Of a stretch of DNA of 64,000 bases, positions 14,530 to 42,290 are shown in pieces. Numbering within the stretch: position 1 is the first letter of the stretch; each line of letters starts with the position of its first letter. The translations under genes were made by a program, and so were the position numbers. Below the pieces are notes generated by a model. It saw only the letters and a list, made by a program, of their open reading frames with translations. It was not told the origin of the DNA and made no database searches. The DNA is taken from positions 1,245,501-1,309,500 of the forward strand of contig CM049319.1 of assembly GCA_026874595.1 (NCBI GenBank). Direction: 5' to 3'. The DNA is from Sipunculus nudus (lineage: Eukaryota > Annelida > Sipuncula > Golfingiida > Sipunculidae).

Positions 14530-15951
14530 TCACATGTAAACGGATGATTGTTCTTGATTCTCTTCGTTGACAGAAACATCTTCATACAAACCGATAGTGC
14601 CAGTGTTATTCCGCTCCACCCGAGGCTGAATACTTCTACGCTCAGTGGGCCCTTGTTGTCTGTTCCATCTGGCCAAAGTGTAAACTGAAATAATGCCGTG
14701 TTGAATTTCTGTCTTAAAGAATTGATAGGAGAAGAAAAATGAAAGTCCAATGAAAAATACACACAGGATAAATGGAACTATGTATGTTTTCCACACATAT
14801 GAGTGTGTTTGGTTCACGTCATGGACAGCAATTGACCGTTCAACTGATCCGACGACATTAGAAGCCTTGCAAGTATAGTTTCCTGATGAAGAAGGCTGAA
14901 CGGCCAATGCTCCTGAAGGACTGGAATCAGTTGCAAATATTCGGTTATTAGGCCCGATGATAGCTATTGATGGTCTTGGAAAACCTGTTACTCTACATTC
15001 CAGTAATAGGTTTTTAACATGTTGCAAGAAGGTCACAGCCGGACTCTGACAACTTGTTATATTGTCATATTCCTCCACAAACTGAGGGTCACGACCTGAA
15101 CATGACACAGGTGTCTCAGTGCCCAGGGACATTTTGAATGTATAATTGCACCTGAATCCAGGCTGTCGCGTTATTAATGAATGGTTATCCACATTGCAAT
15201 TCCATTCTATACTTTTTCCTTTCTTTAGAACTATTATAAATGAATCGACCTTGCATCCGCAGAAAATACGATTTCCAGCCATTGACATTATCGAGGGTAT
15301 ATATGAGTAAGCAGGAACCTCCATTGGCAATATAATATTGTTGTACCGTAGGTCTAACCAGCTTAATTCATCAAGCTTTGTCTCGTTACCGAAAATAACT
15401 CGCCTTATGTTGTTATTGCTCACAACAAAGAATCTTAGCCTAGAAAGACCTTTAATACAGTCCAGATTCAGAACCGTTATATTATTATATGCCAGGTTAA
15501 GGGTAACCAAATTAGTAAGGTTCATGAAAGAGTCAATCTTGATTGTGTTTATACCATTGGTTGATAGTATCAAGGTTTCCAGCAACTTCATTGGTGGAAA
15601 CATCAGTGGGCTTTCGTTTCAAATGTCGTTGTTTGATACATCCAGAGAGACAAGTTTCCCATGTCCAACATTTGATGGACTTTGTATCTTATTGTTGGAG
15701 CAGTTTATGAATGAAGCTTCCGAGAAGGCCTGCAAGACCTCTTCCAGTGATTTCAGTTTATTTTGCGATACATTTACAATTGTAAATTTTGTCACATTCT
15801 GGTCAAGGTTTAAATGTGAAATGTTTTTCTTTGAACAATCAATAGATAATTGATTTATACATCTACACCATGATGACCCACATCCCGTATTGTGATTCAT
15901 ATTCAGGCTTACCGAAAATTCAGATATCAAAATCAACAGCAAGAAATTCAT
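14530..15951 (-). pseudogene. LRR-Ig transmembrane receptor, copy A, one in-frame stop
   Basis: An intronless coding region of 473 codons, read from 15951 down to the stop at 14530. The order is signal peptide (1-16), LRR N-cap (cysteines 24, 29, 31, 39), leucine-rich repeats (LNLAYNNITVLNLD, LSWLDLRYNNI), LRR C-cap, one I-set Ig domain (LLECRVTGFP to GNYTCKASNVVGS), a TM helix (VPFILCVFFIGLSFFF) and a cytoplasmic tail with GLYEDVSVNEE and a terminal SSVYM. Codon 111 is TGA (15619-15621), where copy B has GGA (Gly), so a single base change cuts the protein to 110 residues. Everything downstream is still open, which suggests a very young lesion, an allele or an assembly error. The product would be a cell-surface recognition or adhesion receptor; the ligand is unknown. 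Confidence 0.88.
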
Positions 15952-16281
15952 CTTTGTGCCTCAATGAGTTATCAGAACTTTGGTATGGCTGTTCCCATAC
16001 ACATTGTTATCATGGGTATGAGTGAAAATTTAGTGTGATTATATGAGGCGTGTATGCTACAGAGCAAGTTATTCTCTCCACTGTTGTATACGTAATAATG
16101 ATATACAATGGTTATTAAACAATACGAGGAAGTATGTCTGTCCTATTTTTTGCGTGTTAAATAGATTTTTAAACAAACTCTCATGCTGTTATTAGGATGA
16201 CAAGCAAATAACTTTTTTTTTTGGCATTGGCTTTTGTTAAAAAAAGGCCGGGTTTTATGTTTTATGGTTGTTATGTGGTTC
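15952..16281. other. 5' flank of copy A, paralogous to 26818-27150
   Basis: Nearly the same sequence lies upstream of copy B ('ttatcagaa..ttggtatggctgttcccatacac', 'gaggcgtgtatgctacagagcaag'), so the presumed minus-strand promoter was duplicated with the gene. Similarity ends near 16270, where copy A has an LTR. Confidence 0.7.
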
Positions 16282-16880
16282 TGTAGAGACGTTGATGACG
16301 TCAGGGGTCCTACAAGTTACCGGTTGTGAGGACACAAGAGAACACAGGGGAACAATCGAAAGGAGAGCGTTGAATCATAACACCACAGAAGACAACAGAC
16401 AAACATGGGACTCTTTATATTAACTGGAACTTGTTCCTTTTGTAAACGGTACGACGTCACGTCGTGTACAGCTATAAAAGCATCACATGCCCGATCCCAT
16501 ATGGGCTGCAATTATTATTTGAACTGTCGTGGTGCTCGCCAGGCCTGATTTTGGACATTTGAACTTTTTTTGTTTGATGATGGACTTTTTATCGTGATTT
16601 GCTCCTACGCAGCCTCAGGGGCCGTACCTGCACTTGTACTCGCACTCCTACTATGTGATTTATTGATTGGAGGCACGCCTACTCCACTTCATTTTGAGCT
16701 AAGTATTCTATAATATGGGTGTCTCACTTGGACTGACTTTTATGTGAACTAACCATATTGTATTCTTGTATATATTGTATATAATGATTTGTCTATTATA
16801 AATATTACCATTTAAAGAGTCTTTCTTCAGTTGAGTTGGTTGCGTGTGGAACCAGGTCGAAAGATTAGTTACACGTGACA
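16282..16880 (+). mobile_element. Solo LTR of an LTR retrotransposon
   Basis: A 599-bp segment that starts TG (TGTAGAGACGTTGATGACG) and ends CA (ACACGTGACA), flanked by the 6-bp direct repeat TGGTTC (16276-16281 and 16881-16886). It holds a TATA box (GCTATAAAAGC, about 16471), a CRE octamer TGACGTCA (16296-16303) and AT-rich sequence toward its 3' side. There is no internal coding region and no second LTR, as expected after LTR-LTR recombination. The paralogous flank of copy B lacks it, so it inserted into copy A's flank after or independently of the duplication. Orientation is inferred from the TATA position. Confidence 0.7.
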
Positions 16881-16886
16881 TGGTTC

Positions 16887-17640
16887 AGAGCACTGTAAAA
16901 GGCGGCGCCCTCGTGTTTGAAGTTCATCTGGTCTGTGAAAGCCCAGACTTGAATTCTATTTCAAGTAGTATTGGGTTCGAAGTAAGTGGACTTGGACTTG
17001 AACCTCAAGGACCCGGACTGAGCATCAGCTGGCTTGGACTCGGACATGCACTCGGCCTCGGAAAGTGTCTACTCGACTACTGATATAGAATTTTCCATTC
17101 TTATAAAACATTTTGGTTTATGCGATGATTTTACCGCAGATTACAGACAGACGTAAAAATCCCACCCTCACCCTTGTAGAGACTTCATGGCAAAAAATAC
17201 CACGGAATAACGCGATTATTCTATCAGCTTATTATTGAAAACCAACCCTGCTGTGATAAACAAGGTTTATTCTACTAGATATCTGATGCTGAGATTAATG
17301 TAGCAGGTGAATTTGTTCATATTCTTTGGCACGTTATTCCTTCTTGAAATTTATTACTGTCAAAACTTGATAATGCAAATATTTACAGACATGGATCACA
17401 AAAAAATAATCGCATCAGATGCAGAATCCTTAGATAAAGGTTATGGATAAATACATTTACACCCTACATAGGAAAAATAAGAAGTGCCAAGCTTAAGCCC
17501 ATTGAACTGTTAATTTCATAGTTCCTAAACTCGTTTCCAAGGATGTAATAGGATATCTAATAAAACCATACCAATATTCCCGCCAACATTTTCATATTAT
17601 ATCAGAATTGTATAAATTATTATTGAAAAAGAAAAACCAC
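16887..17640. repeat. Segmental duplicate of 27842-28500
   Basis: 'agagcactgtaaaa', 'cttgaattctatttcaagtagtattgggttcgaagta' and the segment around 'ttctttggcacgttattcc' recur in the same order upstream of copy B. It includes GGACTTGGACTCGG repeats at about 16.99-17.06 kb. It carries no supportable gene; the 79-codon frame at 16844 is a by-product of that repeat. Confidence 0.75.
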
Positions 17641-17721
17641 TTTGGTTAACAGGTGTTATTTCATAAAATGCGAAGCACACATGGTATCATTGGGATGAAA
17701 AAGAAATTAAAATATTTTATT

Positions 17722-18500
17722 GTTAGCTTATCTGACTTTCAGTCATGCTGAGCTATACCATCACTCATTGTCCGTCGCCCATCCGTTTGTCTGTCTGTCC
17801 GTCTGTCCGTTAACCAGGCAAAAATCGTAATCGCTTTACCTGGAATCTTCTAACTTGATATCCAAGATGGTCCATGAAAAATCTCCTTCGAAACCTAAAA
17901 TAAGATCTCTGTTACCTATATCCTCTGAGCTATTGGGCTCAGAATTACCTACAAGAATAATTAAAAATTTGATACAAAACTACAGTATATGAACAACTTA
18001 TGCATTGATCACCATGATTCTGTGCATGTATATTCATCATTGAGTGTTTCATCAGTTTCCGCAGACTGATGGCGCTACCTGGATTTTTTTTTCGAATTTT
18101 ATCGCAATTCTTTCTCCTATTTTGAGACCTTCAAAGATGTGGTCATATGTAAACAGGGTATAAATTGTAATCATTGGAACTTGAAAACTTTTAACTTGAC
18201 AATCCTGAAAGGTCTATTAAAAATCTCCTCGGAAACCAGAAATTAAGTCTCTGTTACCCGTATCCGTTAGCTATAGGGATTGTAAGTACCCATCAGTGTA
18301 ATAAAAATTTATACAAAACCTCCAGATTCTGAATAACTAATGCATTTATCACCATGATTCGTTGGATGCACAACCATCCTGAAGTGTGTTATCAGTTCTT
18401 GCAGACTGGTGGCATCACCTGTTTTTTTTCATATTTTTACGCATTTTCTTTATTTTTTAGACCTTCAAAAATGCGTTCGTCCGTTAATAGGACACTTATT
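17722..18500 (+). repeat. Hairpin-headed dispersed repeat, copy 1
   Basis: It begins with a foldback (TAGCTTATCTGAC, loop, GTCATGCTGAGCTA) and continues with a TCCGTCTGTCCG run. A conserved body follows: 'gcacaaatcgtaa', 'aacctaaaataagatctctgttacc', 'tgagctat', 'gcattgatcaccatgattct' and 'ctgatggcgctacctgg'. A second shortened body follows from about 18.15 kb. It is duplicated with the LRR-Ig gene (partner at 28.6 kb). Confidence 0.75.
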
Positions 18501-18554
18501 CTAATATTGTTGGAGGTAACTGCCTTTCTTTAAATGTCATCTTATTTTAAAAAT

Positions 18555-18875
18555 ATGCTCATCTACAAAATTTCATTCCGGTTTCGGACTACTTGACAGG
18601 GAAGTATGACTAGCTTCCCCTCATTTTATATCCTGGTGTTGACCAGGCCCAATGACTACCGCACCTGCCGCCCTTGGTATGTAATCATCGGCATTGATGG
18701 GTACTACCACCGACAAAAGCCCGAAAGCGCACTCGTTTGTGAGCACGGTCGTTAGGCATTTTCTGGGGGCAGGGCCGACCGTGAAAAATCTTGGCTGCGA
18801 TTTGAAATCACGATCTCCCGGCTTTTAGTTCTGTGCACCATCTCTGACCCAAAGAAGCCGGTGATTACCTTCCTA
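18555..18875 (-). repeat. tRNA-derived SINE, minus orientation
   Basis: The reverse complement matches the copy at 38.80-39.12 kb from the tRNA-like head (around 18790-18870, 'aaagccgggagatcgtga' plus a damaged B box) through 'cggtcggccctg' to the 3' part 'agtccgaaaccgg'. It sits in the LRR-Ig duplication; the partner region at 29.8 kb has only the 3' part. Confidence 0.7.
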
Positions 18876-19269: not shown

Positions 19270-20340
19270 ATATTTTGTTATAGACTTACAGTTGTAATTT
19301 TGATTTTGGTCGTATCATTGTCCAGTTAAAATTTAAAATGTTTTTTTGAACAGTCAACGAATGATCGATTAATACATACCAAAATGACCCACATCCCGTA
19401 ACCTGGTAGAGGCTGACAAAAAAAAATTGTTTTAAACATAATTATTATACACTGGTTATGAAACAATAAAGAGGAAGTATGTTTATCTGGAGTTTTGGGC
19501 CTGTTCAGTAGATTTTTATACAAACTCACATGTTGTTGTTAGGATGATGGGCAAATAATCCTTTGTTGTTTTCTAATTGTTGTAGCTGTTTTGATCAGAA
19601 TGGGCCGTGTACTACATTTTGTATGGTCGTGTATTATGTTATATCTTATTATTGATTTTTTACATGCCTTGAGATTAGAAAAGAAGCATTATATATATAT
19701 CAGTTTCCACTCTTCGCTTTAAACCGCAATTCACCTGTAAATGATCCTTTGAAGTAACTTAGAAATGATATGAACTCATATTCAAGCTTATAGCATTACT
19801 TCATCGGTGGTTATAACTTCTAAATCGCACTTTTGTGCTATTTTCGACAGTCCAGACATACAAATGGCTATTAAACTAGAGTAGTAAGTCTTAATGTTAT
19901 TCAATGTTACATGATTTTCACAATTGTCTTTTTTTCAACAATCAAATTAATTTTTGAATGTTCTATTGAGTTATATAGTACTTGAGGATTGTCTCGGGCT
20001 CTCTCCGGTTACATACAATTGACTGGCCTCCCTAATATATGCACTTGCCGGTTTTAATAGGTATGTTTAGTATGTTGTGTGATAAATATATGTATATAAA
20101 AATGTTGCGACGGCTAAAAAAGGGGGTTCCGATCCCCTGGGACCCCCTCCCCGGCTCCTGTGTATTTAGCGCCACATGTATTGAAAACAATCTAGGTAAC
20201 ACTCATGGGGTTTATAATAGACAGTAGTTATATTGGGAAAGATGTTTATCTTCACTCATCCTTACAGTTAGTGATATGTTCTCATTAACATTATTTATTA
20301 AAAATTAACATGATAGATACAAGGGATTTTAGTATTGCAG
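19270..20340 (-). pseudogene. LRR-Ig relic: 5' end plus upstream flank
   Basis: Between about 19283 and 19420 the minus strand matches the LRR N-cap region of copies A and B ('gaacagtcaacgaatgatcgattaatacat', 'gatgacccacatcccgta'-like). Beyond it, the 5' flank continues to about 20340 with good similarity to 33.66-34.65 kb and to 38.51-38.75 kb. The LRR, Ig and TM parts are gone. It shows that another gene copy once stood between A and B. Confidence 0.7.
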
Positions 20341-20370
20341 TTTAGAAGTTTCCAGTGTCGCTCGCTTTTT

Positions 20371-23670: not shown

Positions 23671-23674
23671 TGGG

Positions 23675-25464: not shown

Positions 25465-26817
25465 TTAAGTTCCACCGGGGACAGACTGCGCAGTCTGCCA
25501 GATCTGGTCACTGGACCTTCTTCTCTGCTCAACCAGAACTATTATGTAACTAAAGCTTCGTTTGTGTTGTATTTCTGTCTGGAAAAGGATGTTACAGAAG
25601 AAAATTGAGAGTCCAAAGACAAATATACAAAGACTAGATGGTATAATGTGCATTGTCCACATATACCAAGGAGTTGTTTCAATATCTTGAACAGTCATAG
25701 TCTGTTTGGCATATCCGACGACATTAGTTCCTTGGCAGGTGTACTTTCCCACTGAAGACGGTTGTAAGGATAACGATCCTAAAGACTTGGACTCAATGGC
25801 AACTATTTGGTCATCAGGCCCATTAATACAAATCGTTGGTGCTGGAAAACCTGTTACTCTGCATTCCAGTAATTTATTTTCAACATTTTGCGAGAAGGTC
25901 ACAGCCGGACTCTGACAACTTGTTATATTGTCATATTCCTCCACAAACTGAGGGTCACGACCTGAACATGACACAGGTGTCTCTGTGCCCAGGGATATTT
26001 TAAATGTATAATTGCACCTGAATCCAGGCTGTCGCGTTATTAATGAATGGTTATCCACATTGCAATTCCATTCTATACTTTTTCCTTTCTTTATAACTAT
26101 TATAAATGAGTCGACCTTGCATCCGCAGAAAATACGATTTCCAACCATTGTTATTATCGAGGGTATATATGAGTTAGCAGGAACCTCCATTGGCAATATA
26201 ATATTTTTGTACCGTAGGTCTAACCAGCTTAATTCATCAATTTTTGTCTCGTTACTGAAAATAACTCGCCTTATTTTGTTATTGCTCACAACAAAGAATC
26301 TTAGCCTAGAAAGACCTTTAATACAGTCCAGATTCAGAACCGTAAGATTATTATTCGCCAGGTTAAGGGTAACCAAATTAGTAAGGTTCATGAAAGAGTC
26401 AATCTTGATTGTGTGTATACCATTGGTTGATAGTATCAAGGTTTCCAGCAACTCCATTGGTGGAAACATCAGTGGGCTTTCGTTTCCAATGTCGTTGTTT
26501 GATACATCCAGAGAGACAAGTTTCCCATGTCCAACATTTGATGGACTTTGTTTCTTATTGTTGGAACAGTTCATGAATGAAGCTTCCGAGAAGGCCTGCA
26601 AGACCTCTTCCAATGATTTCAGTTTATTTTGCGATACATTTACAATTGTAAATTTTGTCACATTCTGGTCAAGATTTAAATGTGAAATGTTTTTCTTTGA
26701 ACAATCAATGGATAATTGATTTATACATCTACACCAAGATGACCCACATCCCGTATTGTGATTCATTTTCAGGCTTACCGAAAATTCAGATATCCAAATC
26801 AGCAGCAAGAAATTCAT
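25465..26817 (-). CDS. LRR-Ig transmembrane receptor, copy B
   Basis: An intronless 450-residue open frame. Signal peptide 1-16; LRR N-cap with cysteines 24, 29, 31, 39; about six leucine-rich repeats (45-205, e.g. LNLANNNLTVLNLD); LRR C-cap (231-284, cysteines 231, 233, 252, 268, 284); one I-set Ig domain with C319 and C361 (GKYTCQGTNVVG); TM helix about 387-412; tail 413-450. It is nearly identical to copy A through the LRRs and diverges in the Ig domain. After TEIQH the tail differs from copy A. The family tail (EEGP to VNEA) instead appears in the next frame downstream, so the native tail may have been lost by a frameshift. Expected at the cell surface as a recognition or adhesion receptor of the metazoan LRRIG type; ligand and function unknown. 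Confidence 0.85.
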   Translation of the reverse strand: MNFLLLIWISEFSVSLKMNHNTGCGSSWCRCINQLSIDCSKKNISHLNLDQNVTKFTIVNVSQNKLKSLEEVLQAFSEASFMNCSNNKKQSPSNVGHGKLVSLDVSNNDIGNESPLMFPPMELLETLILSTNGIHTIKIDSFMNLTNLVTLNLANNNLTVLNLDCIKGLSRLRFFVVSNNKIRRVIFSNETKIDELSWLDLRYKNIILPMEVPANSYIPSIITMVGNRIFCGCKVDSFIIVIKKGKSIEWNCNVDNHSLITRQPGFRCNYTFKISLGTETPVSCSGRDPQFVEEYDNITSCQSPAVTFSQNVENKLLECRVTGFPAPTICINGPDDQIVAIESKSLGSLSLQPSSVGKYTCQGTNVVGYAKQTMTVQDIETTPWYMWTMHIIPSSLCIFVFGLSIFFCNILFQTEIQHKRSFSYIIVLVEQRRRSSDQIWQTAQSVPGGT

Positions 26818-27840
26818 CTTTGTGCCTCAAGGAGTTATCAGAATTTTGGTATGGCTGTTCCCATACACATTGTTATCATGGGTATGAGTGAAAAATTAGT
26901 TTGATTATATGAGGCGTGTATGCTACAGAGCAAGTTATTCTCTCTACTGTTGTATACGTAATAATGATATACAATGGTTATTCAACAATACGAGGAAGTA
27001 TGTCTGCCCTCCTTATTTGCGTGTTAAATAGATTTTTAAACAAACTCTCAACAAACTCTCATGCTGTTATTAGGATGACAAGCAAATAACTTTTTTTCTA
27101 TATGTCTTTGGCTTTCGGTCAAAAAAAGGCCGGGTTTTATGTTTTATGGTCATGTCATTATCTTGAAATTATATTTTGAAAAAAAGTTATAACTTTGATC
27201 AGGAGCAATATATCTACAGCCAGACACGTAGGCACAATCACCTGTGAAACGTTAGTTTAAAGTGTCGTAGAAATGGGATAACTCGTGTGCAACTTTGTCT
27301 TCCATGGTTCTGCACTATGTATATAACGGTCCATTTATATCATGACGGATACACATTTAAAGTACAACAGGTAGTCCCAAATTTAATTACACCTATCAGA
27401 TTGTTAAAAACTTCTATAATTTTTAGTTGTCAGGGTTCATAATCATCTAATTAGGTGCGTGTTTAAGCTTAAATTAGCTAGGAAAGATACTATTATTTTA
27501 TGGCTTTATAGGTCATTCAGTTTCCTATGATAAACAAACTGCAATATGCACATACATACATTTATATTTTAGTATACTGAATTACTATTGTTCTAGGTAT
27601 ATTTATTTATAACAGGACATATGTTTTGTTATTCAACTAGATGGCAGTGTATCTTTGTAGGATTCCATTTATAGATATTTCAGATGATATTACTTTTGGG
27701 TACAGTGTTAGAGTACATTCACACACTCAAGTTTATGTCTCATATGCCAGCCATGATATGTTTTCATATACAACAAATAACAGTGGTCCCAACAAGTCAG
27801 AATGTGTCCGTAAGGACTTGTTAATTGTTTTTGTAATTTC
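26818..27840. other. 5' flank of copy B and unassigned sequence
   Basis: 26818-27150 is paralogous to the flank of copy A and presumably carries the minus-strand promoter. From 27150 to 27840 copy B has about 690 bp absent from the copy A flank, without a recognisable element. Confidence 0.55.
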
Positions 27841-27841
27841 A

Positions 27842-28500
27842 GAGCACTGTAAAAAGGCGCCCTCGTTTTGATGTGCATCTGGTCTGTGAAAACCAAGACT
27901 TGAATTCTATTTCAAGTAGTATTGGGTTCGAAGTAGGTGGACTTGGACTCGGACAAGCACTCGGCCTCGGGAAGTGTCTACAGGTGAAGCAGGTGAATTT
28001 GTTCATATTCTTTGGCACGTTATTCCTTCTTGAAATTTATTACTGTCAAAACTTGATAATCCAAATATTTACAGACGTTTAAGATCACAAAATATTAATC
28101 GCATCAGATGCAGAATCCTTAGATAAAGGTTATGGATAAATACATTTACACCCTACATATGAAAAATAACAAGTGTTAAGCTTTGGCCCATTGAACTCTT
28201 AATTTTATAGTTCCTAAACTCGTTTCCAAGGATGTAATAGGATATCTAATAAAACTGTACTCATAATCCCGACATGCCGCATGTGCCATCTGGGTGTATG
28301 CCAGTTGGCAGTCTAATGAGAGGTTCGAGAAACTCTCAGAAATAAACCTGTCGACAAAAGCACACCGAGGCCAGCTTCCACGTGTGAAACGATATGCGGA
28401 GAGGGCCTGGTGCTACGTTTATTGGCAAAGATTAAAGCGGACTAACGCTACTTCGGGGGACGCTAACATTTTCATATTTTATCAGAATTGTATAAATTAT
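27842..28500. repeat. Segmental duplicate of 16887-17640
   Basis: Same landmarks in the same order as the copy A flank. The GGACTTGGACTCGG tract is shorter here, and about 190 bp at 28270-28460 replace the copy A sequence before 'attttcatattttatcagaattgtataaatta'. Confidence 0.7.
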
Positions 28501-28594
28501 TATTAATAAAGAACAACAACTTTCATTAACAGGTGTTATTTCATAAAATGCTCACATGGTATCATAGTACGAAAAAGAAATGAAAATATTTTAT

Positions 28595-29430
28595 TGTTAG
28601 CTCAGCTGACTTTCACTCATGCTGAGCTATAGCGATCACCCATTGTCCGTCGCCCATCCGTCTGTCTGTCTATCCGTTTGTCCGTTAACCAGGCACAAAT
28701 CGTAATCGCTTTACCTGGAATCTTCTAACTTGATAACCAGGATGGTCCATGGAAAATCTCCTTCGAAACCTGAAATAAGATCTCTGTTACTCATATCCTC
28801 TGAGCTATTGAGCTCAGAATTACCTCCATGAATAATTAAAAATTTGACACAAAACTACAGTATATGAACAACTTAAGCATTGATCACCATGATTCTGTGC
28901 ATGTATATTCATCATGTAGTGTTTCTTCAGTTTTCATAGACTGACTGCGCTACCTGGATTTTTTTTTGAAATTTTAACGCAATTTTTTCTCCATTTTTTA
29001 GACCTTAAAAAGATGTAGTCATCTGTAACTTTTAACTTGACCATACCGGAAGGTCTATTAAATATCTCCTCGGAAATCAGAAATTAGGTCTCTGTTTCCC
29101 GTATCCTTGAGCTATAGGGATTGTAAGTACCCATCAGTATAAGAAAAATTTTATACAAAATCTCCAGTTTCTGAATAACTAATGCATTTATCACCATGAT
29201 TCGGTGGATGCACAACCATCCTGAAGTGTGTTATCAGTTCTTGCAGACTGGTGGCATCACCTGTTTTTTCATATTTTTACGCATTTTCATTATTTTTTTT
29301 AGACCTTCAAAAATGCATTCCTCCGTTAACATGACACAATTCTTACCGGGGAGGTCCATAAACAACTCCTTTGAAACCTGAAATTAGGTCTCTGTTACCC
29401 ATATGCTCTCAGCTATGTTTCAGTTGAATT
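28595..29430 (+). repeat. Hairpin-headed dispersed repeat, copy 3
   Basis: Head TAGCTCAGCTGAC, five-base loop, then TCATGCTGAGCTA, followed by TCCGTCTG repeats and two bodies. It is the duplicate of the element at 17.72 kb, with matching private variants such as 'ttggtgg/cgttggatgcacaaccatcctgaagtgtgtt'. Confidence 0.75.
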
Positions 29431-29796
29431 GTGATACAACCTTCAAAACTTAGCATTCAGGTGATAAAATTCCTTCTTTTAATGTCTTCCTAGTCCGCTG
29501 AGCTTCATCACTTCTGGGTCACTTGTTTTGGTAATTATCGAGGTTATATGATTTTTCTTTGATCGTCGTATTTGATTTGCATGTTCATGCTGATGTTTAA
29601 AATAAAGTTTACTAGTGTTCTCTGTGAATGTTTTTTCTGGGATCTATTACGGAACCTAGATAAAATAACTTGAAATATGTTGTTATATACAACATACGTG
29701 ATAATAATTTTCTGGCGATTACATTCATATATCTTATTCTAATATTTTTTTCTTTGGAGGTAACTGCCTTTCTTTAAATGTCATCTTATTTTAAAA

Positions 29797-29862
29797 ATAT
29801 GCACATCTGCAGAATTTCATTTTGGTTTCGGACTACTTGACAGGGAAATATCACTAGTATTA
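29797..29862 (-). repeat. SINE 3' fragment
   Basis: 'catctgcagaatttcattttggtttcggactacttgaca' is the reverse complement of the 3' part of the SINE at 38.8-39.12 kb. The tRNA-like head is missing. Confidence 0.6.
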
Positions 29863-30121
29863 TCCCTGCCGTCATATACGTCTGTTAACAACCACCGTTA
29901 CCCCTAGAAGGAATAAGCTATGTACTTCAATTCATGATTAGATAGAATAAGAGGGATAGCATACCATTATCATTTCAGTGTTCAGAGGTGATTCTGTAGC
30001 TGATTTACGTTACATAACATCAACATTTAATGATGTATTTCAGCTTTGATTGTGGTCTTTTGAGCAATAATGTCAATGAGACCGCACTCAATATATAATG
30101 TTGCAGGTAAGGATAGAGGAT

Positions 30122-30430
30122 TCAACTCCGATAATTCAACTGTAATTTCATTACAGTCACTTCATTATTTACAAAAACATTTTCATGCAAGCGTGGTGTT
30201 TTGTTCCTCCTACTTCTCCCCTTAAAGGGCCCTTTTTGGCTGATGTGACAAATGTTATGTAAATGAAGCATCTGGTGTGTTGTATTTCTGTCACAGAAAG
30301 GTAGTGGAAGAAGAAAACTATATGTCCAAAGGCCAATAAACCAGGGCCAGACGGTACAGTGTGCACTGTCCATATATAACCACAAGCAATTTTAGTATTT
30401 CCGCAGTTACTATATGCCTTGGAGACCTAT
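30122..30430 (-). pseudogene. LRR-Ig relic: TM segment and cytoplasmic tail
   Basis: The minus strand reads VTEIQHTRCF and KGPLRGEVGG in one frame and LHENVFVNNEVT in another. These are the counterparts of TEIQH, QGPTERR and LYEDVSVNEE in copy A. The TM part is frame-damaged and no Ig or LRR sequence remains. Its downstream flank (29.87-30.12 kb) is paralogous to 32.27-32.66 kb. Confidence 0.7.
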
Positions 30431-32080: not shown

Positions 32081-32667
32081 TTACTCATGGCCGAATGAGC
32101 GTTAATTTAGCATTTGATAAGAAATTATCCTATTAAACACAGAACTGAAATTTTTTCCATAACATGGTGATTTTCTGCACACTCACAGTTCTTTCTCCAT
32201 AAGTCTGTTACTTGTATCTGTTCCGCCATAGTCAACATCACCCACAAATATCACAGTCATCCATAGCAAGGTAGTATCCCTGCCGTCATATACGTCTGTT
32301 AACAGCCACCGTATCCCCTAATGGGTCATCGATAAGCACGTCATCAAACACAAGCTATGTACTTGTATTCTTCACCAGATATAATATAACAGAGATAGCA
32401 TATCATTATCATTTCCGTGTGTTCAGACATAATATTGTCGCTGCTTGACATTACATTACATCAACATTTAAGATAATATTTCAGCTTTGATTGTTCTTTC
32501 CAAATATTCTACATTTTCTATAAAGATGTAGATACGCATCGTGTGACTTAAATATGTTCGATGAATCATCTCGTAATTTACTCTGTAGCTAACCTCAGTG
32601 GCCATTTGAGCAATGATGTTAATGTGGCCACTCTCAATTTATAATGATGCAGGTAAGGATAGAGGAT

Positions 32668-33842
32668 TCATCTCTGGTAATTCAACTGTAATTCCAGTAG
32701 AGTCACTTCATTATATACAAGAAATATTATGTAAATAAAGCAGCTGTTGTGTGTATTTCTGTCAGGGAAAGGTAATGAGAGAAGAAAACTGAAAGTCCAA
32801 AGGCCAATATACAAATACCAGACGGTACAGTGTGCATTGTCCGTATATAGCAATGAGATTTTAGTATCATGAACAATAAAAATTTTCGGCCGACCCGACG
32901 ATGTTAGTTGTCTGGCAGGTATAGTTTAACGAACAACGATTCTTAAGGTTTGAAATGCTTTGCAAATATTTGATCATTAGGGCCAAGCATAGTGATTGTT
33001 GGACGTGGAAGTCCTGAAACTTTATACTCCAGAATACGACTTGTTGTATTGTCCAGGAATAACACACCCGGACTCTGATGACTTGGAATTTTGTTTTATT
33101 CCTCCATAAAATGAGGGTCAAAGCATATACCTGACACAGATGTTGCTGCACCAAGGGATAATCCAAATCTATGAATGCATCTGGGACCAGGTTGTCGCTT
33201 GATTGCAGATCACTTAGCCAATCAATTTTGTACTCTATCCTTTCTTAATAACGAATGCGTCGACCTTGCATCCACAGATAATATTTTTTCCGACAGTGAG
33301 TGACATAATCGAGGGTAAATTATTAGACAATCACATTTGCAATATCAAGTTCTTGTACCGTAGGTCTAACATCAAGCATTATCTGACAACTCATAATATT
33401 TCACAGTATGTTGTTTTTGCTTAGCAAGACCCTTAGGACAGTGTAAATCCAGCACCATGTGATTTTGGATCGTCAGATAAAAGACTATAAATGTAGTAAC
33501 GTTCGTATATATCATCGGCTGATAGTATCAAGGTTCTATGCAGCCTATATCCAGTGAAACAAGTTTTCGATGCGGAACTTTAGGTGCACTATGTAAATTA
33601 TTGTTGGAGCTGTTCATGACTGAATCTTCCGAGATCGGCATTGCCACACCTAGGACACCAGTCTATTTTGTAATAGATTTACAGTTGTAATGTAAATTTC
33701 GGTCGTATCATTGTAAAGTTTAAATTTAAAATGAATTTCTTTGAACAATTAATGGATGATCGATTAACGCCATCCTGTAACCTGGTTGATATTCAGACTG
33801 ACCAAAAACACAGATATATAAATCAGCAGCACGCATTCATCT
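32668..33842 (-). pseudogene. LRR-Ig relic covering most of the gene
   Basis: The minus strand follows the whole copy A layout with many frame breaks. A start region ('gcattcatctttgtgcttctg') and N-cap precede LRR pieces ('ttgttggagctgttcatgactgaatcttccgag', 'taccgtaggtctaac'). The C-cap ('cgaccttgcatccacag') and an Ig piece reading LNYTCQTTNIVGSAE follow. A TM/tail piece ends YNEVTLLELQLNYQR, close to the 30.1-kb relic's NNEVTVMKLQLNYRS. It is too damaged to encode a receptor and is older than copies A and B. Confidence 0.8.
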
Positions 33843-34204
33843 TTGTGCTTCTGTAAGTTACCAGAACTTTTTGTATGACTGATCGTATACAAAACAAAAA
33901 AATACGTAACCATATGAAGGGTGATTTGCTGTTGAGTGAGTCCTCCTGTTTATTGTTTTAAACACAATAATTATGTACTTGTTATCAAACAATAAAGGGA
34001 AAGTATGTTTATCGGGAGTTTTTGGCTGTTAAGTAGAGTTTTATAAAAGCTCAAGTGTTGTTATTAGGATGAAGAGCATATACCCTTTGTAATTGTTGCA
34101 GTTGTTTTGTTAAGAATGGGCGGTGTACTATATTTTGTATGGTCGTGTTTTTATGTGATATCTTATTATTAATTTTATTACATACCTTAGGATTAGGTTA
34201 GGAG

Positions 34205-34269
<65 letters not shown>

Positions 34270-34660
34270 TAACCTGTAAAATGTTCCTTTGAAATATCTT
34301 AGAAATGATATGAACTCATGTTCAAGCTTATAACATAACTTCGTCGGTGGTAAAACTTCTAAATTTTGGACGATCCAGATATAAAAATGGCTATTAAACT
34401 AGAGTTGTTGGTCTTATGTTATTCAATGTTACTTGATTTTTACAATTTATGTTTGTTGTTTCAACTATCAAATTAATTAGTAAATGTTCTATGAATTTAA
34501 AAAAAAACTTAAGAATTATCTCGGGGTCTCTCTGTTAACATAACATTGACTGGCTTCTTTAATATTATGTACACTTGCCGGTTTTAATCTTTATAAGAAT
34601 ATTTAGTACTTAGTGTGATAAATAGATATATTTCAAAACGTCATCCACGAGAGTTGTTGC
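33843..34660. other. LRR-Ig 5' flank with (TA)n at 34207-34264
   Basis: Paralogous to 19.42-20.1 kb ('gggcggtgtactatattttgtatggtcgtgt' and 'ttcaagcttataacataacttcgtcggtgg'). Similarity resumes at 38.51 kb, past later insertions. Confidence 0.65.
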
Positions 34661-34910: not shown

Positions 34911-37900
34911 ATGGAGATTTATATGTAATTTTAATGGGTGATCTGAATGCAAGGATTGGTAAAATGTATGATTACATAGAAAATGATCATTTAGGATTCA
35001 TCGGTTTGAATGAAGTGTACCCTTCAGATGAATTTAAAGTGTGTAGAAATTCAAAGGATGGTAAAACTAACAAATTTGGATTTTCATTACAACAGTTGTG
35101 TTGTGCTTTTAATATTCATGTTTTGAATGGTAGAATTCCTCCAGATATTGAAGGTGAATACACATGTGTAACACATGCTGGACAGAGTGTTATTGACTAC
35201 ATTATTGTTAGTGCTGAATTTTTTATTAAAATGGAATCGTTTACAGTTTTAAGGTTAGATTTGTCTGATCACTTTCCAGTGAAATGTACTTTAAAAGTTG
35301 AATCTGTACAAACAGTTCCAGAAAATATTGAGCACACAACTGCATGGACAAGGTACAAACTTAAGTCACAGGCTGTAGTTGAACTTTTAAATGATAATGA
35401 AAATTTATATAATGATCACATATGTAATTTTAATTATTATGTTCAGCAAGATGTTGAAAAGGCTATTGAATATTTGAATAAAGTGTTACATGTTTTTACT
35501 GAACCTAAATATTACCAAAGTAAAAAGAGTTGGTCTCAACCAAACTGGTGGGATGATGAATGTGCTAAAGCAAAATTGATTAAATATACAGCACTAGATA
35601 GATATAGGATATCTGGAAATATTTATGATTTGAATAAATACAAAGAGAAGAGACGACAATTTAGAAACCTTTGTGATAATAAAAAGAAATCTAAACAAGA
35701 GTGCACTATGAAATACTTAACAAAAACTAAAAATATAAATGATTTATGGGCCTGTATTAAAAAGTGTCTCAAGAAAGAGAAGGGTGTTAGTCACATTCCA
35801 GCAAACGATTGGTTTAATTACTTCAGAGATTTACTTAATGAAAATAAAAATGAAGTTAAAGAAGATTTTCACATTTTAGCTGACACATACTTCAAAAATA
35901 ATTTTAATAGTAATTGTGAGTGTGGATCACTCAACAATGAGATAACAGTATTTGAAATAAGACAGGCAATAAATCAAATGCACAGTGGTAAATCCCCTGG
36001 ACCAGATGGACTCCAAGTGGATATTATTAAATCACTTTTAGAAATTATTTTGCCTTTATTACATACTTTGTTTAATAAGATTTTCAACAAGGGGTCATTT
36101 CCTGAAGAATGGAGTAAAGCAATAATATTTCCGTTACACAAGAAGGGTTCTCAGAATGAACCTGGTAATTATAGAGGGATATCCTTACTAAATGTTACTG
36201 GTAAAATATTTACTAAAGTTTTGAACAATAGACTTTCGCAGTTTGTTGAGGAAATGAGTATTTTATCTGAATCACAAGCTGGTTACAGGAAAGGATATTC
36301 TACAATTGACCAGGCATTTATTTTGTATGCTTTAGTTAAAAAATACTTGGTTAAAAGAAAAGGTAGATTTTACTGTTTATATATTGACTTTGCAAAAGCG
36401 TTTGATTGTGTACAACATAATTTATTGTGGCATGTTTTATTAAAACAAGGCATAAATGGTAAAATATTACGTGTTATAAAATCAATGTATTCAAAAATGC
36501 AGTCTTGTATATTAACTGAGAGTGGACTTACAGATTATTTTGCATGTTCGGTAGGTACCCGGCAAGGTTGTATGATAAGTCCTTTATTATTTTCTTTATT
36601 TATTAATGAGTATTGTAATATGTTAGATGGAAGCGATTGTCAGGGGATATATGTAAATGGAAATCTCTCAAATTTAATGACATTGTTATTTGCAGATGAT
36701 ATGGTTAATTGTGGAGATACTGTAGGTAGACTTCAGCAACAGATTGATCTCTTACAAAAGTTTTGTGAAAATTATGGTTTCAAAATTAATACAGATAAAA
36801 CTAAGATTATGGTTTTTAGGAAAGGTGGTCCCTTACGTAAAGTAGAAAAATGGTATTTAAAAGGTAAACAGTTAGAAGTGGTTCCATACTACAAATATCT
36901 TGGTATTATTTTCTCCACAAAATTGTCTTGGTTAAAAACACAACAACAGCAGGTTTTACAAGCAAACAAAGCTGTATGCATGATTAAAACATTCAGCAAA
37001 AAGTGTAAATATGTAAGTACAAAACATCTCTTTTATTTGTTTGATCAAATGGTAGTGCCAATATTAACATATGGATGTGAGTTGTGGGGTTTTAAAAAAT
37101 CAGAAACTATAGAGAGAGTACAGTACAAATTCTGCAAACAAATTTTAAATGTAGGTCAGAATACTCCAAATGCAGCAGCATTAGGAGAATGTGGCAGATT
37201 TCCTTTGTTTGTAACTTGCTTATTGCGTTGTATTAAGTATTGGATTAAACTTTTGCATATGCCAGAACATAGATATCAGAAACAGGTGTACAATATGTTG
37301 ATGAATTTAGATAGCAGTGGTAAATCAAATTGGGTATCTGAAGTAAGAACATTGCTGTTCCAGTCTGGTTTTGGATATGTTTGGATGGCGCAGTACATTG
37401 GAGATGTGAATTATTTTATGAAAGAAGTTGAAATGAGAATAAAAGATATGGCCATTCAAAATTGGCATGGTGATATTGAATTGTGCAGTAAACTCTACTA
37501 TTATGGTACTTTTAAATCTATGCTCACTCTAGAAAAATATGTCAATTGTATCCCAAATAAACAACACCGTACAGCACTTGCTAAACTTCGATGTTCAAAT
37601 CATGAATTAGCTATAGAAATGGGCCGCCATAAAAACATTTCTCGTGAAGAAAGGATCTGTAAATATTGTTTATGCTATGGATTCAATATTGTTGAGGATG
37701 AAGCTCACTTTATGCAAGAGTGTAAATTATATCACGATTTGAGGTTAAAATATATTAGACAAGACTTGCATTATCCAAGTGAACAAAATTTTATAAAATT
37801 ATTTAATTTAGATAATCCATTTGAAATATCAAAAGTTGCTGCATATGTGTTTAATTCGTTTTTGAGGAGACGGAAAATGATAGATGGTTGAATTATGTAT

Positions 37901-38280
37901 TTTAAACAGTACTCACTTTGACAGCACAATAGATTCATTGTGTACTAAGGTGTGCAATAATGTTACATGTGTTTATGGCACGATTGATTAGTCATTTTAA
38001 GACTGTTACTTAACATTATATGGTTGTAATTTTTTAATTGACTGTTTAGTGAAATGTAATTATGTTTATCCTCACAGATGATGGCAAAACAGATTTATAT
38101 GTATGTAGGTATGCAGTTCTTTTACTTGTGTTAATGGCAGTGTTTACTAGAAAATATAAGACTGCTACCTTCCATTGGATTTATGTACTTTTTAAATTGA
38201 ATATTTATTGAAATGTTTGGAACTTTGGGCCTGAGGCCTTTTTCCTGAATAAAGTTCTGTTCTGTTCTGTTCTGTTCTGT
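34911..38280 (+). mobile_element. 5'-truncated LINE with intact ORF2 segment and perfect target-site duplication
   Basis: A 3370-bp non-LTR retrotransposon flanked by the perfect 10-bp direct repeat GCATATTAAA (34901-34910 and 38281-38290). The 5' end is cut inside the endonuclease domain, as usual for target-primed insertion. The 3' end is AATAAAG followed by TTCTG repeats (38254-38280) instead of poly(A). The open frame 34913-37891 is unbroken, so insertion appears recent. It landed inside SINE debris in the flank of an LRR-Ig relic. Confidence 0.92.
34934..37891 (+). CDS. Endonuclease-reverse transcriptase (ORF2 fragment) of the LINE
   Basis: 985 residues from the first ATG; the frame is open from 34913, so this ATG is only the first inside the truncated element. 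Residues 1-115 are the C-terminal half of an AP-like endonuclease (MGDLNARIG, DYIIVS, LSDHFPV). The reverse transcriptase follows: GKSPGPDG, GNYRGISLLN, SQAGYRKG, YIDFAKAFD (484-492 region), GTRQGCMISPLLF, the catalytic FADDM (586-590) and YKYLGI. The C-terminal part has LAKLRCSNHELAIEMGRHKN and a Cys-His cluster (CKYC, HFMQEC). The enzyme would nick target DNA and copy its RNA there. The missing N-terminal endonuclease half makes this copy non-autonomous. I cannot place its clade by eye. Confidence 0.92.
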   Translation: MGDLNARIGKMYDYIENDHLGFIGLNEVYPSDEFKVCRNSKDGKTNKFGFSLQQLCCAFNIHVLNGRIPPDIEGEYTCVTHAGQSVIDYIIVSAEFFIKMESFTVLRLDLSDHFPVKCTLKVESVQTVPENIEHTTAWTRYKLKSQAVVELLNDNENLYNDHICNFNYYVQQDVEKAIEYLNKVLHVFTEPKYYQSKKSWSQPNWWDDECAKAKLIKYTALDRYRISGNIYDLNKYKEKRRQFRNLCDNKKKSKQECTMKYLTKTKNINDLWACIKKCLKKEKGVSHIPANDWFNYFRDLLNENKNEVKEDFHILADTYFKNNFNSNCECGSLNNEITVFEIRQAINQMHSGKSPGPDGLQVDIIKSLLEIILPLLHTLFNKIFNKGSFPEEWSKAIIFPLHKKGSQNEPGNYRGISLLNVTGKIFTKVLNNRLSQFVEEMSILSESQAGYRKGYSTIDQAFILYALVKKYLVKRKGRFYCLYIDFAKAFDCVQHNLLWHVLLKQGINGKILRVIKSMYSKMQSCILTESGLTDYFACSVGTRQGCMISPLLFSLFINEYCNMLDGSDCQGIYVNGNLSNLMTLLFADDMVNCGDTVGRLQQQIDLLQKFCENYGFKINTDKTKIMVFRKGGPLRKVEKWYLKGKQLEVVPYYKYLGIIFSTKLSWLKTQQQQVLQANKAVCMIKTFSKKCKYVSTKHLFYLFDQMVVPILTYGCELWGFKKSETIERVQYKFCKQILNVGQNTPNAAALGECGRFPLFVTCLLRCIKYWIKLLHMPEHRYQKQVYNMLMNLDSSGKSNWVSEVRTLLFQSGFGYVWMAQYIGDVNYFMKEVEMRIKDMAIQNWHGDIELCSKLYYYGTFKSMLTLEKYVNCIPNKQHRTALAKLRCSNHELAIEMGRHKNISREERICKYCLCYGFNIVEDEAHFMQECKLYHDLRLKYIRQDLHYPSEQNFIKLFNLDNPFEISKVAAYVFNSFLRRRKMIDG

Positions 38281-38327
38281 GCATATTAAAGCGGACAGAA
38301 CTGTCTCACTAGCGAAGCTTGCCTTTC

Positions 38328-38440
38328 TAGCGAAGTGGTGGAACGTTGGACATGTGCGCTACCGACATGGTTTCGAATCCCAGATCGGCCCAATATTTTC
38401 CTCTAAGCAATTTGTATTAGTAACAAATGGTGGCAGAGGT
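38328..38440 (+). repeat. Second tRNA-derived SINE family (head)
   Basis: A perfect A box, TAGCGAAGTGG (38328-38338), and a B-box-like GGTTTCGAATCC (38369-38380) at tRNA spacing are followed by 'gatcggcccaatattttcc'. That same body sequence recurs at 34693-34740, left of the LINE, so two pieces of this family flank the insertion. It is not a functional tRNA: the stems do not close. Confidence 0.55.
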
Positions 38441-38800
38441 TGGATATATTTCAAAGATACTTTAATGGCAGTTAATATACATAAAACTGAGTTAATATCT
38501 CAGTTAAAATTTTAGGCGCCACAAGTATTTATAACAGTCTAAGTTATACATAGGGAAGGGGTTTTAAGTACATGATATTTATTCGTTATTGCAAATGTAT
38601 ATAGGAGAGTTGCTAATTTATATTTACTCCGAATAGTCAACGAAAGGGTTTTTCTTTCATACAGTAATGTTTCTAATTTAATAAAGCTAACATGACAGAT
38701 ACAAAAGTCTTTTTATATCGCAGTTTATAAGGTTCCAGTGTTAGTAGCTTTTTATGAAACGTTTAGGTTTATGTAATAACTTTATGACAAGTAACCGGTT

Positions 38801-39115
38801 TCTGTGGCTTGGGGGTAGAGCACAGGACTCAAAGCCGGGAGATCGTGAGTTCGAATCTCAGTCGAGGCGGTGAGACTTCACGGTCGGCCCTCACCCAAAG
38901 TGAGTGCTCTGCAGGATTAACGGAAAGGTCGTGCCCCACGGCCATGTTTCACGCACAAACTATGATTATACATCCAGCAATGGGGATAACCAGGGCCCGC
39001 AGGTGCAGTAGTCACCGGGCCAGGATATAAAATTTAGAGGAAACGTGTGATACTGCCCTGTAAGGTAGTCCGAAACCGGAATGGAATTCTGCAGATGCAC
39101 ATAAACGTTGTTAAG
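38801..39115 (+). repeat. tRNA-derived SINE, best copy
   Basis: RNA polymerase III type 2 promoter: an A-box-like TGGCTTGGGGGTAGAG (38805-38820) and B-box GAGTTCGAATCTC (38847-38859). The body contains 'cggtcggccctcacc', 'ggtcgtgccccac' and 'gcagtagtcaccgggcc', and the 3' part is 'agtccgaaaccggaatgg'. Other copies lie at 6.73, 18.56, 29.80 and 31.87 kb. Confidence 0.75.
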
Positions 39116-39880: not shown

Positions 39881-40156
39881 ATGGTACACACATATAGTTT
39901 AACGCATATAGTTTATCTGATCTGACGACATTATATTATTATATGATGCCTGGTATCATGCCCACTGAATAAAGTTGAACGGACTATGGTCCTAAAAGAC
40001 TGGAATCAGTTGTAAATATTTGATCATTAGGTGGACTGACAGTATTCCGCGATCCTGGAAACCCTGTTTGTATATACCATTGGTTGATAGTATCAGGGTT
40101 CTCAGCTGTGTCATTGGTGGAAGCAACAGCGAGCTTTCATTTCCAATGTCGTTATT

Positions 40157-40350
40157 CAGAAGGGGATCGGGGGGGGGGGGGGTCCGGACCCCCCCCCCCT
40201 TTCACCAGAATCAACGTTTTCCTAAGGGCTTCAGACAAAATATTAAGGCCTGGACCCCCCACTTTTCCAGACCTGGGGACTCTTTTTAGGGTTTTCATTA
40301 GTCCTCCTGGGTTGGACACCCCCTTCTCCTAAATCCTGGATCCGCCCCTG
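40157..40350 (-). mobile_element. GGGGCGGATCC short inverted-end element, copy 1
   Basis: 194 bp flanked by TTATT (40152-40156 and 40351-40355). The reverse complement starts CAGGGGCGGATCC; the other end is CAGAAGGGGATC, an imperfect inverted terminus. Removing it restores 'gtcgttatttgata', the counterpart of 'gtcgttgtttgata' in copy B. It carries the G/C palindrome at 40169-40199. No transposase; hAT-like ends are a guess. Confidence 0.7.
40169..40199. repeat. G14-TCCGGA-C11 palindrome
   Basis: Fourteen G, TCCGGA, eleven C: a perfect palindrome over 40172-40199, able to form a cruciform or, on separate strands, a G-quadruplex and an i-motif. Exact counts are vulnerable to sequencing error. 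Confidence 0.9.
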
Positions 40351-40619
40351 TTATTTGATAAAATGGGGACAAATGTTTCCGATGTGGGGGTTTAGGTGGG
40401 CTTTATATGTAATTATTTGAGCATTTTATGAATGATGCTTCCTCGATTGATTCCAAACTGTTTTGTGATATATGTCTTCGGAAATTTTCTTCAAATATAC
40501 GATGATATTAAAATGTGAAATGTTTCTCTCTGAATAACCAATGGACGATCGATTGGTACATTTACACAGATATAATCTGTACCCTGCAGTGGTAGTGGTA
40601 TTAAGGTTTACCGACAATA

Positions 40620-40807
40620 GGGGCGGATCCATGATTAAAGAAAATGGGGGGTCCAACCCAGAAGGACTAATGACAAAGCCTAAACATGGTCCGCAGGTCA
40701 GAAAAACAGGGGGGTTCCAGGGCCTCAAATATTTGAAGCCCTTATAAAAAAAAGGTTGCAGCGCCTGAAAAGCACCCCCCCCCCCCCCCCCAAAGATCCT
40801 CATCTGC
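40620..40807 (+). mobile_element. GGGGCGGATCC short inverted-end element, copy 2
   Basis: The same family as copy 1 in the opposite orientation, with shared blocks GGGGCGGATCCATGATT, GGGGGGTCCAACCCAGAAGG and 'ggggttccagggcctcaaata' and a C18 tract near the other end. Flanked by ACAATA at 40614-40619 and 40808-40813. A terminal fragment of the family also sits at 34675-34692 (CAGGGGCGGATCTAGGATC). Confidence 0.7.
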
Positions 40808-40813
40808 ACAATA

Positions 40814-41785
40814 CAGGTATCAACATCATCTACAAGAAAACCATCGTATTTCTGTTATTTATCACTGTAATATGCGTGTTCACATACTGAGAGTGAGGTA
40901 GCATTAATGTGCGTGCTTTGAAAAGGAGAAAGCATGCTTGTTTATTGTTGTACTTATTTTTACCCCTATAAAGAATCAGCCTTTATGTAATCATATAAAT
41001 GATGATTTATTTATAGAGCAATTAATTAATTTATTTTTGTACATATTATAACAATTATACAGTGGTTATAAAAATTGAGAGGAAGCATATTTCTTCAATT
41101 CATCTGTCTGAAAACTTCATTTATTAGTTTTTAATATAAGCCATCATAATAGTAAATTAGATGATAAACTGTCCCAGTTCTCCTGGTTATTTGAGTTCAC
41201 TATGCAGGGGTCAGGTCATGTGTTACATTATTCATGTTCATGTTTCCTTTATTACATTATCCCTAAAATGTACCCTAAGGTATCACCAAACATCACTCGC
41301 AATAACTTCTCAGTTTCATTGTTGTCCAAGGATTTACGTAAAATATAAAGGTCCATTTTATGAAGTTGCATGTTCCATGTACTTAATGGCTTGGGTTTTT
41401 ATATATAAGATGTTAAGAATTTCGAACTCACGAGGTTTCAGAAAATGCCCTTTTTTGTGAAATTCAGAGGGCAACCATTAAGACCAGGCATTTCGTGCAT
41501 CCCGCTATCGAACACCACGGGTTTAGTTAATATATATGCAGATACGAAAACAAAAGGACAGATATCAAGAATTTATTTCTCAAGATAGGTCCGTAATCTG
41601 TTTAAAGGAGTAACTTGGGTTTTAATCGAGATCTCCCCATGTTGCCCTTTGAGGATCTTCCAGCTTCCGGGGTCTAACAGGAGCAGCTTCAGCCCCGAAG
41701 CCCATTACCTTGACGACCAGGGCGCGTCATAGAAATTATCAAAACAACTTTCTCTTATAAGCAAAGCATGTGTGATAAGCACGTT
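40814..41785. other. Intergenic, no gene recognised
   Basis: The part up to about 41.1 kb resembles the LRR-Ig 5' flank ('tataacaattatacagtggttataaaaattgagaggaagcatat'). The rest is unassigned. Confidence 0.45.
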
Positions 41786-41789
41786 ACAC

Positions 41790-42290
41790 TTCCTTATTCT
41801 GACCATTATGTTGTCCTGGCTCCCTTTATCCACCAAATTTATGCTGTAATTCTTCGTCACCAAATAAACCTCAGCTTATCATGCACTTTAATATAGTCCA
41901 TGTTCAACACCGTGCAATTTTTGTTCTATAGTTTAAAACTCGGTTACCAGGTCAGAGGAGAGGAAGTAAAGTTTTCCAATACCCTTTGTTTTTGGAATAA
42001 ATTGGGGCTCACATTTTCAAACATTCATGGACTGAAATTTCTGGAGTAGAAATCAGAACACTTTATCTTATTGTTGAAGTAGCTTATGAATCAAGCACCC
42101 GGGAAGACTTGTAACACCTAGAAAAAACATTCCAGCAAATATCCAGCCTATATATTTATGATCAGATTTTTTTAAAATATTATTTTTAGTTATAATGTAA
42201 AACTTTGCACATCAAAAGTTGATCGATAAGGCATTCGCAGTAATATATTTAACGTCCAGTTATTGTGATTGATTAAAACAAAATTTATAA
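41790..42290 (-). pseudogene. LRR-Ig relic, LRR and N-cap part
   Basis: The most decayed recognisable copy. 'cttattgttgaagtagcttatgaatcaagcacccgggaagacttgtaac' aligns with 'cttattgttggagcagtttatgaatgaagcttccgagaaggcctgcaag' of copy A. 'actttaatatagtccatgttcaacaccgt' aligns with the LRR segment before it. The N-cap end is only faintly visible near 42.22-42.28 kb. Confidence 0.6.

Follow-up and report, generated by a model that had tools for sequence, protein, structure and literature searches.

In a 64,000-nt window of contig C14 (C14:1245501-1309500) we find a cluster of genes for membrane receptors that join leucine-rich repeats (LRRs) to an immunoglobulin (Ig) domain. The ectodomain of these genes and their transmembrane (TM) segment and cytoplasmic tail differ in history, a point absent from the initial annotation of the window, which had described local birth-and-death of LRR-Ig receptors. 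In the surrounding genome (1.4265 Gb, 153 contigs; a single genome was analysed) the window is a small, mostly decayed satellite of a large animal family of cell-surface receptors. In this family recombination has uncoupled the ectodomain from the TM segment and tail, alongside tandem duplication and decay. On balance, we favour an explanation by birth-and-death plus shuffling of ectodomains and tails, in which long tails would signal by tyrosine and short tails would lack that signal.

The two long copies in the window, A (14530-15951, minus strand, ATG at 15951) and B (25465-26817, minus strand), each encode an LRR region, one Ig domain, one TM segment and a tail in a single frame. The frame of A reads LRRNT-LRR-LRRCT-Ig-TM-tail, the LRRNT and LRRCT labels being assigned by eye from the cysteine pattern; it matches LRR_8 with an E value of 5e-13 and I-set with 24.8 bits (cut-off 23.7). 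B is an open LRR-Ig-TM frame of 450 aa with a shorter tail, matching LRR_8 at 2e-11 and Ig models below cut-off. Both had been annotated as near-intact genes: the long LRR-Ig-TM frames are indeed there, but an in-frame TGA (15619-15621, inside an LRR) interrupts A, and the tail of B lacks the tyrosine motif present in A. The 62-aa juxtamembrane segment and cytoplasmic tail of A (14530-14718, minus strand) carry YEDV at about 14575-14586 and the C-terminal residues SVYM. An AlphaFold model of B, made from a two-row alignment, is of poor overall quality, with a mean pLDDT of 40, the LRR part below 50 and residues 301-440 at about 55-88.

A and B had also been described as near identical. This holds between the 5' flank and the early Ig domain (near 5' flank 94%, LRRs 97%, then 95% up to the start of the Ig domain) but not beyond, where identity drops to 69% in the Ig end, 63% in the TM segment and 52% in the tail. 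A likelihood changepoint places the junction within the Ig domain, at 14976-15031 in A (minus strand; ~96% identity to B upstream and 65-68% downstream, the log-likelihood rising by 90 relative to a single rate), the counterpart in B being 25842-25897 (minus strand). Synonymous divergence (dS) between A and B is 0.067 before the break and 0.85 after it. Downstream of the junction B resembles two relics in the window: copy C (32730-33832, minus strand), which spans most of the gene and is interrupted by several stop codons (E 1e-43 in tblastn with B as query), at 76% over 216 nt, and copy D (30232-30378, minus strand), a TM/tail relic in which the 3' end of C is duplicated (82-85% DNA identity), at 74% over 124 nt. 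The TM segment of B is 79% identical to that of C versus 63% to that of A, and the 3' end of A has its DNA relative not in B but in L042, a relic at C14:1.167 Mb, ~92 kb away (82% over 206 nt). Site patterns among A, B, C and L042 (R), counted as AB|CR:AC|BR:AR|BC, are 56:2:2 from -300 to 975, 2:2:1 to 1110, and 8:5:29 over 1110-1425, the TM/tail part, where AR|BC is favoured. The two halves of the A and B genes differ in history.

The larger repertoire that had been suspected from the window is borne out. With B as query we find relatives at no fewer than 94 scored places among 607 candidates, and with a C1 relative as query at least 87 among 573; both counts are lower bounds, and the distant matches (mostly 24-33% identity; C9, C3, C10, C17 and others) are known by match alone. 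A genome-wide total of only two copies, which was to speak against a repertoire, is not what we see. The main cluster of relatives lies at C1:90.87-91.76 Mb, where, of 23 places aligned over 290 residues or more, 13 are stop-free inside the match and 10 contain stops; we examined 200 kb of this cluster and gene-sized stretches of further members. LRR_8 exceeds its Pfam cut-off in A, B and all ten relatives scanned. We count an Ig domain as present after the LRRs: I-set is above cut-off in A only and below in B, and Ig models match five of the ten relatives with E values up to 0.01, each below cut-off. Across an alignment of 21 sequences, two cysteines of B, C319 and C361, do not vary. In 29 of 33 copies the best 21-residue hydropathy window in any frame (mean at least 1.96) falls at nt 1062-1188, and it lies elsewhere in c04, c08, L029 and L043, the TM call being that of a simple hydropathy scan rather than a TM predictor. 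With LRRs, an Ig domain and a TM segment near the C-terminus, the members are LRR-Ig membrane receptors of the LRR_Ig/FN3 class of extracellular LRR (eLRR) proteins. Viral and prokaryote contigs searched for relatives of B gave 5 and 35 pattern matches, none of which was confirmed. Equal-scoring LRR-Ig relatives stand at C3:40703233 / 40801774 and 40750541 / 40849115, each pair about 98.5 kb apart, and at C1:91172838 / 91211300, 38.5 kb apart; they reflect either recent segmental duplication or assembly duplication. Within the C1 cluster, L010:5661-8246 (C1:90885661-90888246) is a long tandem repeat whose repetitive frames, with a period of ~15 residues, are open on both strands.

The break seen between A and B recurs across the family. 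We compared 32 copies in 496 pairs, with c04, L043 and the window relics C-G excluded and before L045-L047 were added, and scored a swap where ectodomain identity was 0.75 or more and tail identity was lower by over 0.30, a threshold fixed after a first view of the data. Ectodomain identity reaches 0.75 in 31 pairs, and in 13 of these, spread over five of seven clades, the tail drop exceeds 0.30: A/B; c01 versus c02, c03 and c06; L030 and L044 versus L031 and L032; L036 versus L033, L034 and L037; and L039 versus L038 and L041. Ordinary 3' decay does not account for this drop, since the remaining 18 close pairs keep a tail identity of 61-97%; c10/c11 and c10/c12, with drops of 0.28-0.29, lie just below the threshold. 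Breakpoints in all five swapped clades fall between ~250 nt before and ~100 nt after the TM start. In c01/c02, for instance, the ectodomains are 98% identical versus 36% for the tails.

Site patterns show that the grouping flips within the gene in three of the four quartets examined for it, and we therefore conclude that recombination has taken place. Among c01, c02, c05 and c06 the counts change from 26:0:3 in favour of c01+c02 (nt 0-1000) to 2:144:0 in favour of c01+c05 (nt 1110-1530). Among L033, L047, L036 and L034 they change from 80:0:0 (nt 0-600) to 1:1:236 (nt 1080-1750), the reciprocal grouping; there are therefore two ectodomain types, each paired with both tails. The short 3' module of L036 has four more copies at C1:91.70-91.75 Mb, amid the long-tailed L037, L034 and L033, and its last 57 residues find a gapless 74% match in L047 and L046, with one stop in L046. 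L030, L044, L031 and L032 form two tandem pairs of one short and one long form, with members ~4-5 kb apart, at C1:91.274/91.278 and 91.365/91.370 Mb; their tails and 3' flanks group by type (274:1:0), and their ectodomains are 93-98% alike both within and across types.

The long tails share a tyrosine pattern. The motif Y[EDQNSK][DENY][VILMS] occurs in eight of nine versus 1.1 expected by shuffling, and, measured from an anchor that we set close to the end of the TM segment, eight of nine have a first tyrosine at 39-46 residues and a further one at 60-67; most carry a YEDV-like motif with a second tyrosine 16-22 residues further on. We compared these tails with the consensus of the immunoreceptor tyrosine-based inhibitory and activation motifs (ITIM and ITAM). 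By eye, neither the -2 residue of an ITIM nor the ITAM spacing is present in the long tails, and the ITAM model is absent among the Pfam matches of ten relatives. Activating partners in vertebrate paired-receptor systems typically carry a charged residue in the TM segment; in this family the seven short-form TM segments examined have none (listed below), and L039 has an R close to the end of its TM segment. For the short-tail genes c02, c03 and c06 we looked for a further exon: a conserved downstream block is present, but no convincing sense-strand exon was recognised in it.

In the explanation that we favour, the members would be type I membrane receptors with an LRR ectodomain, one Ig domain, one TM segment and a cytoplasmic tail in one reading frame, and tandem duplication supplies new copies. 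Gene conversion or unequal crossing-over, with breakpoints from mid-Ig to just past the TM segment, would mix or homogenise the ectodomains, and the TM/tail and 3' flank of genes homogenised in this way would derive from other lineages. The outcome would be receptors, often adjacent to each other, that are nearly alike in the sensing part and unlike in the tail, the long tails mostly bearing a YEDV-like motif plus a further tyrosine and the short ones mostly lacking it; within the window, A has the long tail and B the shorter. The long form may signal via tyrosine phosphorylation and SH2 recruitment, and the short form may read the same ligand without a phosphotyrosine signal, as a decoy, as a modulator or via a partner. 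The receptors could serve in the recognition of microbes or other cells; an immune role and opposed signalling of the two forms are inferred. More tentatively, the family might be a paired-receptor system that a protostome evolved independently on an LRR-Ig scaffold, in which recombination keeps tyrosine-tailed and short-tailed ectodomains matched, so that one ligand would be read both by partners that signal and by partners that do not, or that signal differently. If this is true, the use of one ligand with alternative tails would look convergently evolved, on a scaffold unlike the vertebrate one, and the genes would form a set on which to test whether such an animal combines tyrosine-based signalling by receptors with decoy or antagonist forms.

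A number of observations weigh against shuffling between signalling and non-signalling tails. The tyrosine motif and the thresholds were defined post hoc, from data already viewed; the motif is absent from the long tail of c09, L005 has the motif at the second position only, and two of ten shorter tails (c02 and c06) do contain the motif versus 0.2 expected. These same two tails hold a donor-like GGTAAG. None of the seven short-form TM segments examined (B, c02, c06, L031, L036, L038, L041) contains K, R, D or E. The L036-type short tail is weakly constrained, with a ratio of non-synonymous to synonymous substitution (dN/dS) over the 57 residues of 0.66-0.68 versus L036 and 1.26 for L046/L047. 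The short forms L031, L032, c06 and L038 are broken, as are A and L044, and some of them may be merely decaying. As for recombination itself, two of the seven clades (c10-c12; L003/L005/L007/L035) are free of swaps, the 3' flank past the tail in A, B, C and L042 carries no clear signal (6:8:4), and patterns among L038-L041, the fourth quartet examined for a flip, favour no grouping in the ectodomain (18:20:13) and are 0:0:17 in the tail. The L030/L044/L031/L032 quartet does not flip, its 5' flank (14:4:0) and ectodomain (11:5:0) also leaning to grouping by type.

The pattern could arise neutrally if tandem copies recombined wherever they were similar, their 5' parts being homogenised and their tails drifting, with no paired function. 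Such concerted evolution fits the many broken copies, including the 10 of 23 places in C1:90.87-91.76 Mb (at least 290 aligned residues) with internal stops, as well as the non-coding 5' flank among the homogenised tracts and the 5'-to-3' rise in dS that also appears in c10/c11, a pair just below the swap threshold. We nevertheless judge it rather unlikely: the breakpoints of the five swapped clades keep to the interval around the TM start given above (an argument with no formal conversion null behind it), neighbouring long/short pairs are found repeatedly, and tails that are otherwise barely alignable place their tyrosines about equally far from the membrane. Simple birth-and-death would make A and B plain tandem duplicates whose 3' ends decayed faster, recombination being absent. 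The window does hold relics of several ages, A with its stop and B with its motif-less tail, but dS leaps from 0.067 to 0.85, the flips in grouping contradict this account, several tails have nearer relatives elsewhere, and the tails of unswapped pairs still align; we regard it as extremely improbable.

Two further explanations concern the gene models and the assembly. Some short tails might be read-through into an intron, with splicing to a downstream exon giving another tail, so that single-exon genes would be set beside two-exon genes. GGTAAG does occupy matching positions in c02 and c06, directly after HPYKDV and HPYEYV; however, by eye no convincing sense-strand exon stands out in the conserved block that lies 2.65-3.05 kb downstream from where the c02 match starts, the tails of B, L038 and L041 have no such donor (by eye), and a short C-terminal stretch of L036 is common to L047, which together leave read-through unlikely. 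That the near-identical stretches are alleles set in tandem, through an assembly artefact or unmerged haplotypes, is very unlikely. Heterozygous genomes are prone to this error, and the equal scores at C1:91172838 / 91211300 and in the C3 pairs at about 98.5-kb spacing would fit it; the mosaics, however, are near identical in part only, with TM segment, tail and 3' flank that strongly differ and in several cases match other loci.

Fast evolution of the family under positive selection is not supported by the comparison of substitution rates. We computed NG86 dN/dS for 22 pairs, which share ancestry and are not independent, several members being broken; site models were not applied. The ratio is 0.22-0.74 in the LRR part, 0.17-0.80 in the LRRCT except for L033/L034 at 1.13, and 0.29-0.89 in the Ig part except for L034/L037 at 1.34. 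The Ig part is less constrained than the LRRs in most pairs. General positive selection is unsupported, with dN/dS mostly below 1 and these two values above it.

Proteins named LRRIG are known from amphioxus, scallop and oyster. In the portions available of a survey of extracellular LRR proteins, the LRR_Ig/FN3 group has 4, 8, 37 and 38 members in worm, fly, mouse and human, respectively (PMC2235866). Our family resembles that class (e.g. LRIG, LINGO, AMIGO), as described there, in its LRR ectodomain followed by Ig and TM segment (PMC2235866), but differs in being clustered as paralogs by the dozen (at least 94 scored places for B) and in its shuffled tails. It has no clear tie to a named LRR-Ig subfamily: the best PDB sequence matches, through the LRRs, are IGFALS (8e-22) and LRIG1 (3e-15). 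An LRR-IG category for Aplysia appears among the abbreviations of PMC9334734.

In vertebrates, near-same ectodomains on differing tails form receptor pairs that read one signal in two ways. The nearest functioning parallel is Siglec-11 and Siglec-16, such paired receptors whose ectodomains are kept alike by gene conversion (PMC5701461). The likeness to our family lies in very similar ectodomains, differing signalling parts, exchange by conversion and a partner that is often a pseudogene allele (PMC5701461); the difference is that here an LRR plus Ig ectodomain lies in one frame and the breakpoints are inside coding sequence. Near-identical ectodomains with different TM segments and tails, as in paired receptors, are found in five of our seven close-pair clades. 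The present family differs from vertebrate paired receptors in having no canonical ITIM or ITAM and no charge in the short-form TM segments examined. By this comparison it resembles them genetically, and we do not class it as a member because the tails and TM segments depart from the ITIM/ITAM and charged-TM patterns.

Recognition-domain genes are likewise multiplied in bivalve immune expansions (C1q, TLR, IgSF), as far as the passages seen of PMC5877582 and PMC9646362 go; these cover TLR, LRR-only, NACHT and Ig families, with no tail-shuffled LRR-Ig family among them. A large C1q expansion in bivalves is described in the available part of PMC6835236, and the present genome has at least 141 C1q-domain matches. 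With its LRR-Ig receptors and LINE reading frames, these matches mark it as animal, probably that of a bivalve. In the open-access literature we found no account of molluscan LRR-Ig receptors that are paired or have shuffled tails, which is weak evidence of absence, most subscription journals being outside that scope; none of the LRR/Ig terms sought occur in a clam genome paper (PMC8905726).

Within the window, self-comparison and tblastn with A and B confirm a local cluster of two long copies and five relics, all on the minus strand as annotated. Beside C and D, these are copy E (19271-20105), an LRRNT remnant (19284-19376) with a 5' flank matching that of C; copy F (39960-40614), consisting of LRR and Ig pieces split by an inverted repeat (40217-40352 / 40616-40750); and copy G (41866-42117), a faint LRR relic. 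By chance alone the relic search reaches at best 28.5 bits in 30 Markov windows and 25.8 in the reversed window. E is the weakest by protein (29.6 bits, marginal) and pairs as DNA with the 33.7-kb copy at 75-85%. G, which had been called barely recognisable yet related, is both: it scores 33.5 bits, a value reached by none of 200 shuffles of its own region. A closer kinship of F to the 3' half of A than to that of B finds no backing in its site patterns (3:4:2).

Flanking DNA was duplicated with the genes, as had been noted. The 5' flank of A (15952-18613) is duplicated with that of B (26818-29857) at 87-94% where aligned, with unaligned stretches such as 16.3-16.9 kb; self-comparison pairs 16884-18495 with 27838-29337, 29857-30398 with 32271-32867, and 19271-20105 with 33664-34641, the last with a weak continuation at 38511-38753. 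This continuation lies past an open non-LTR retrotransposon frame (long interspersed nuclear element, LINE; 34934-37891, plus strand, 985 aa, RVT_1 3e-36), which sits within the duplicated flank of copy C and splits a flank that is unbroken at 19.3-20.4 kb. At ~38250-38450, TTCTG repeats are followed by a tRNA-like stretch with a B-box-like element, by eye resembling a short interspersed nuclear element (SINE), and a similar piece lies at 34.68 kb. An Rfam scan of the window gave nothing above gathering scores. By eye, 1616-1948 (plus strand) looks like a Kringle-like exon, 10148-10489 (minus strand) like a fragment of a retroelement RNase H, and 43268-43681 (plus strand) like a fragment of a LINE reverse transcriptase. 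Tandem arrays occupy 50609-51647 (278-bp unit), 58117-58610 (17 bp) and 58869-59510 (114 bp).

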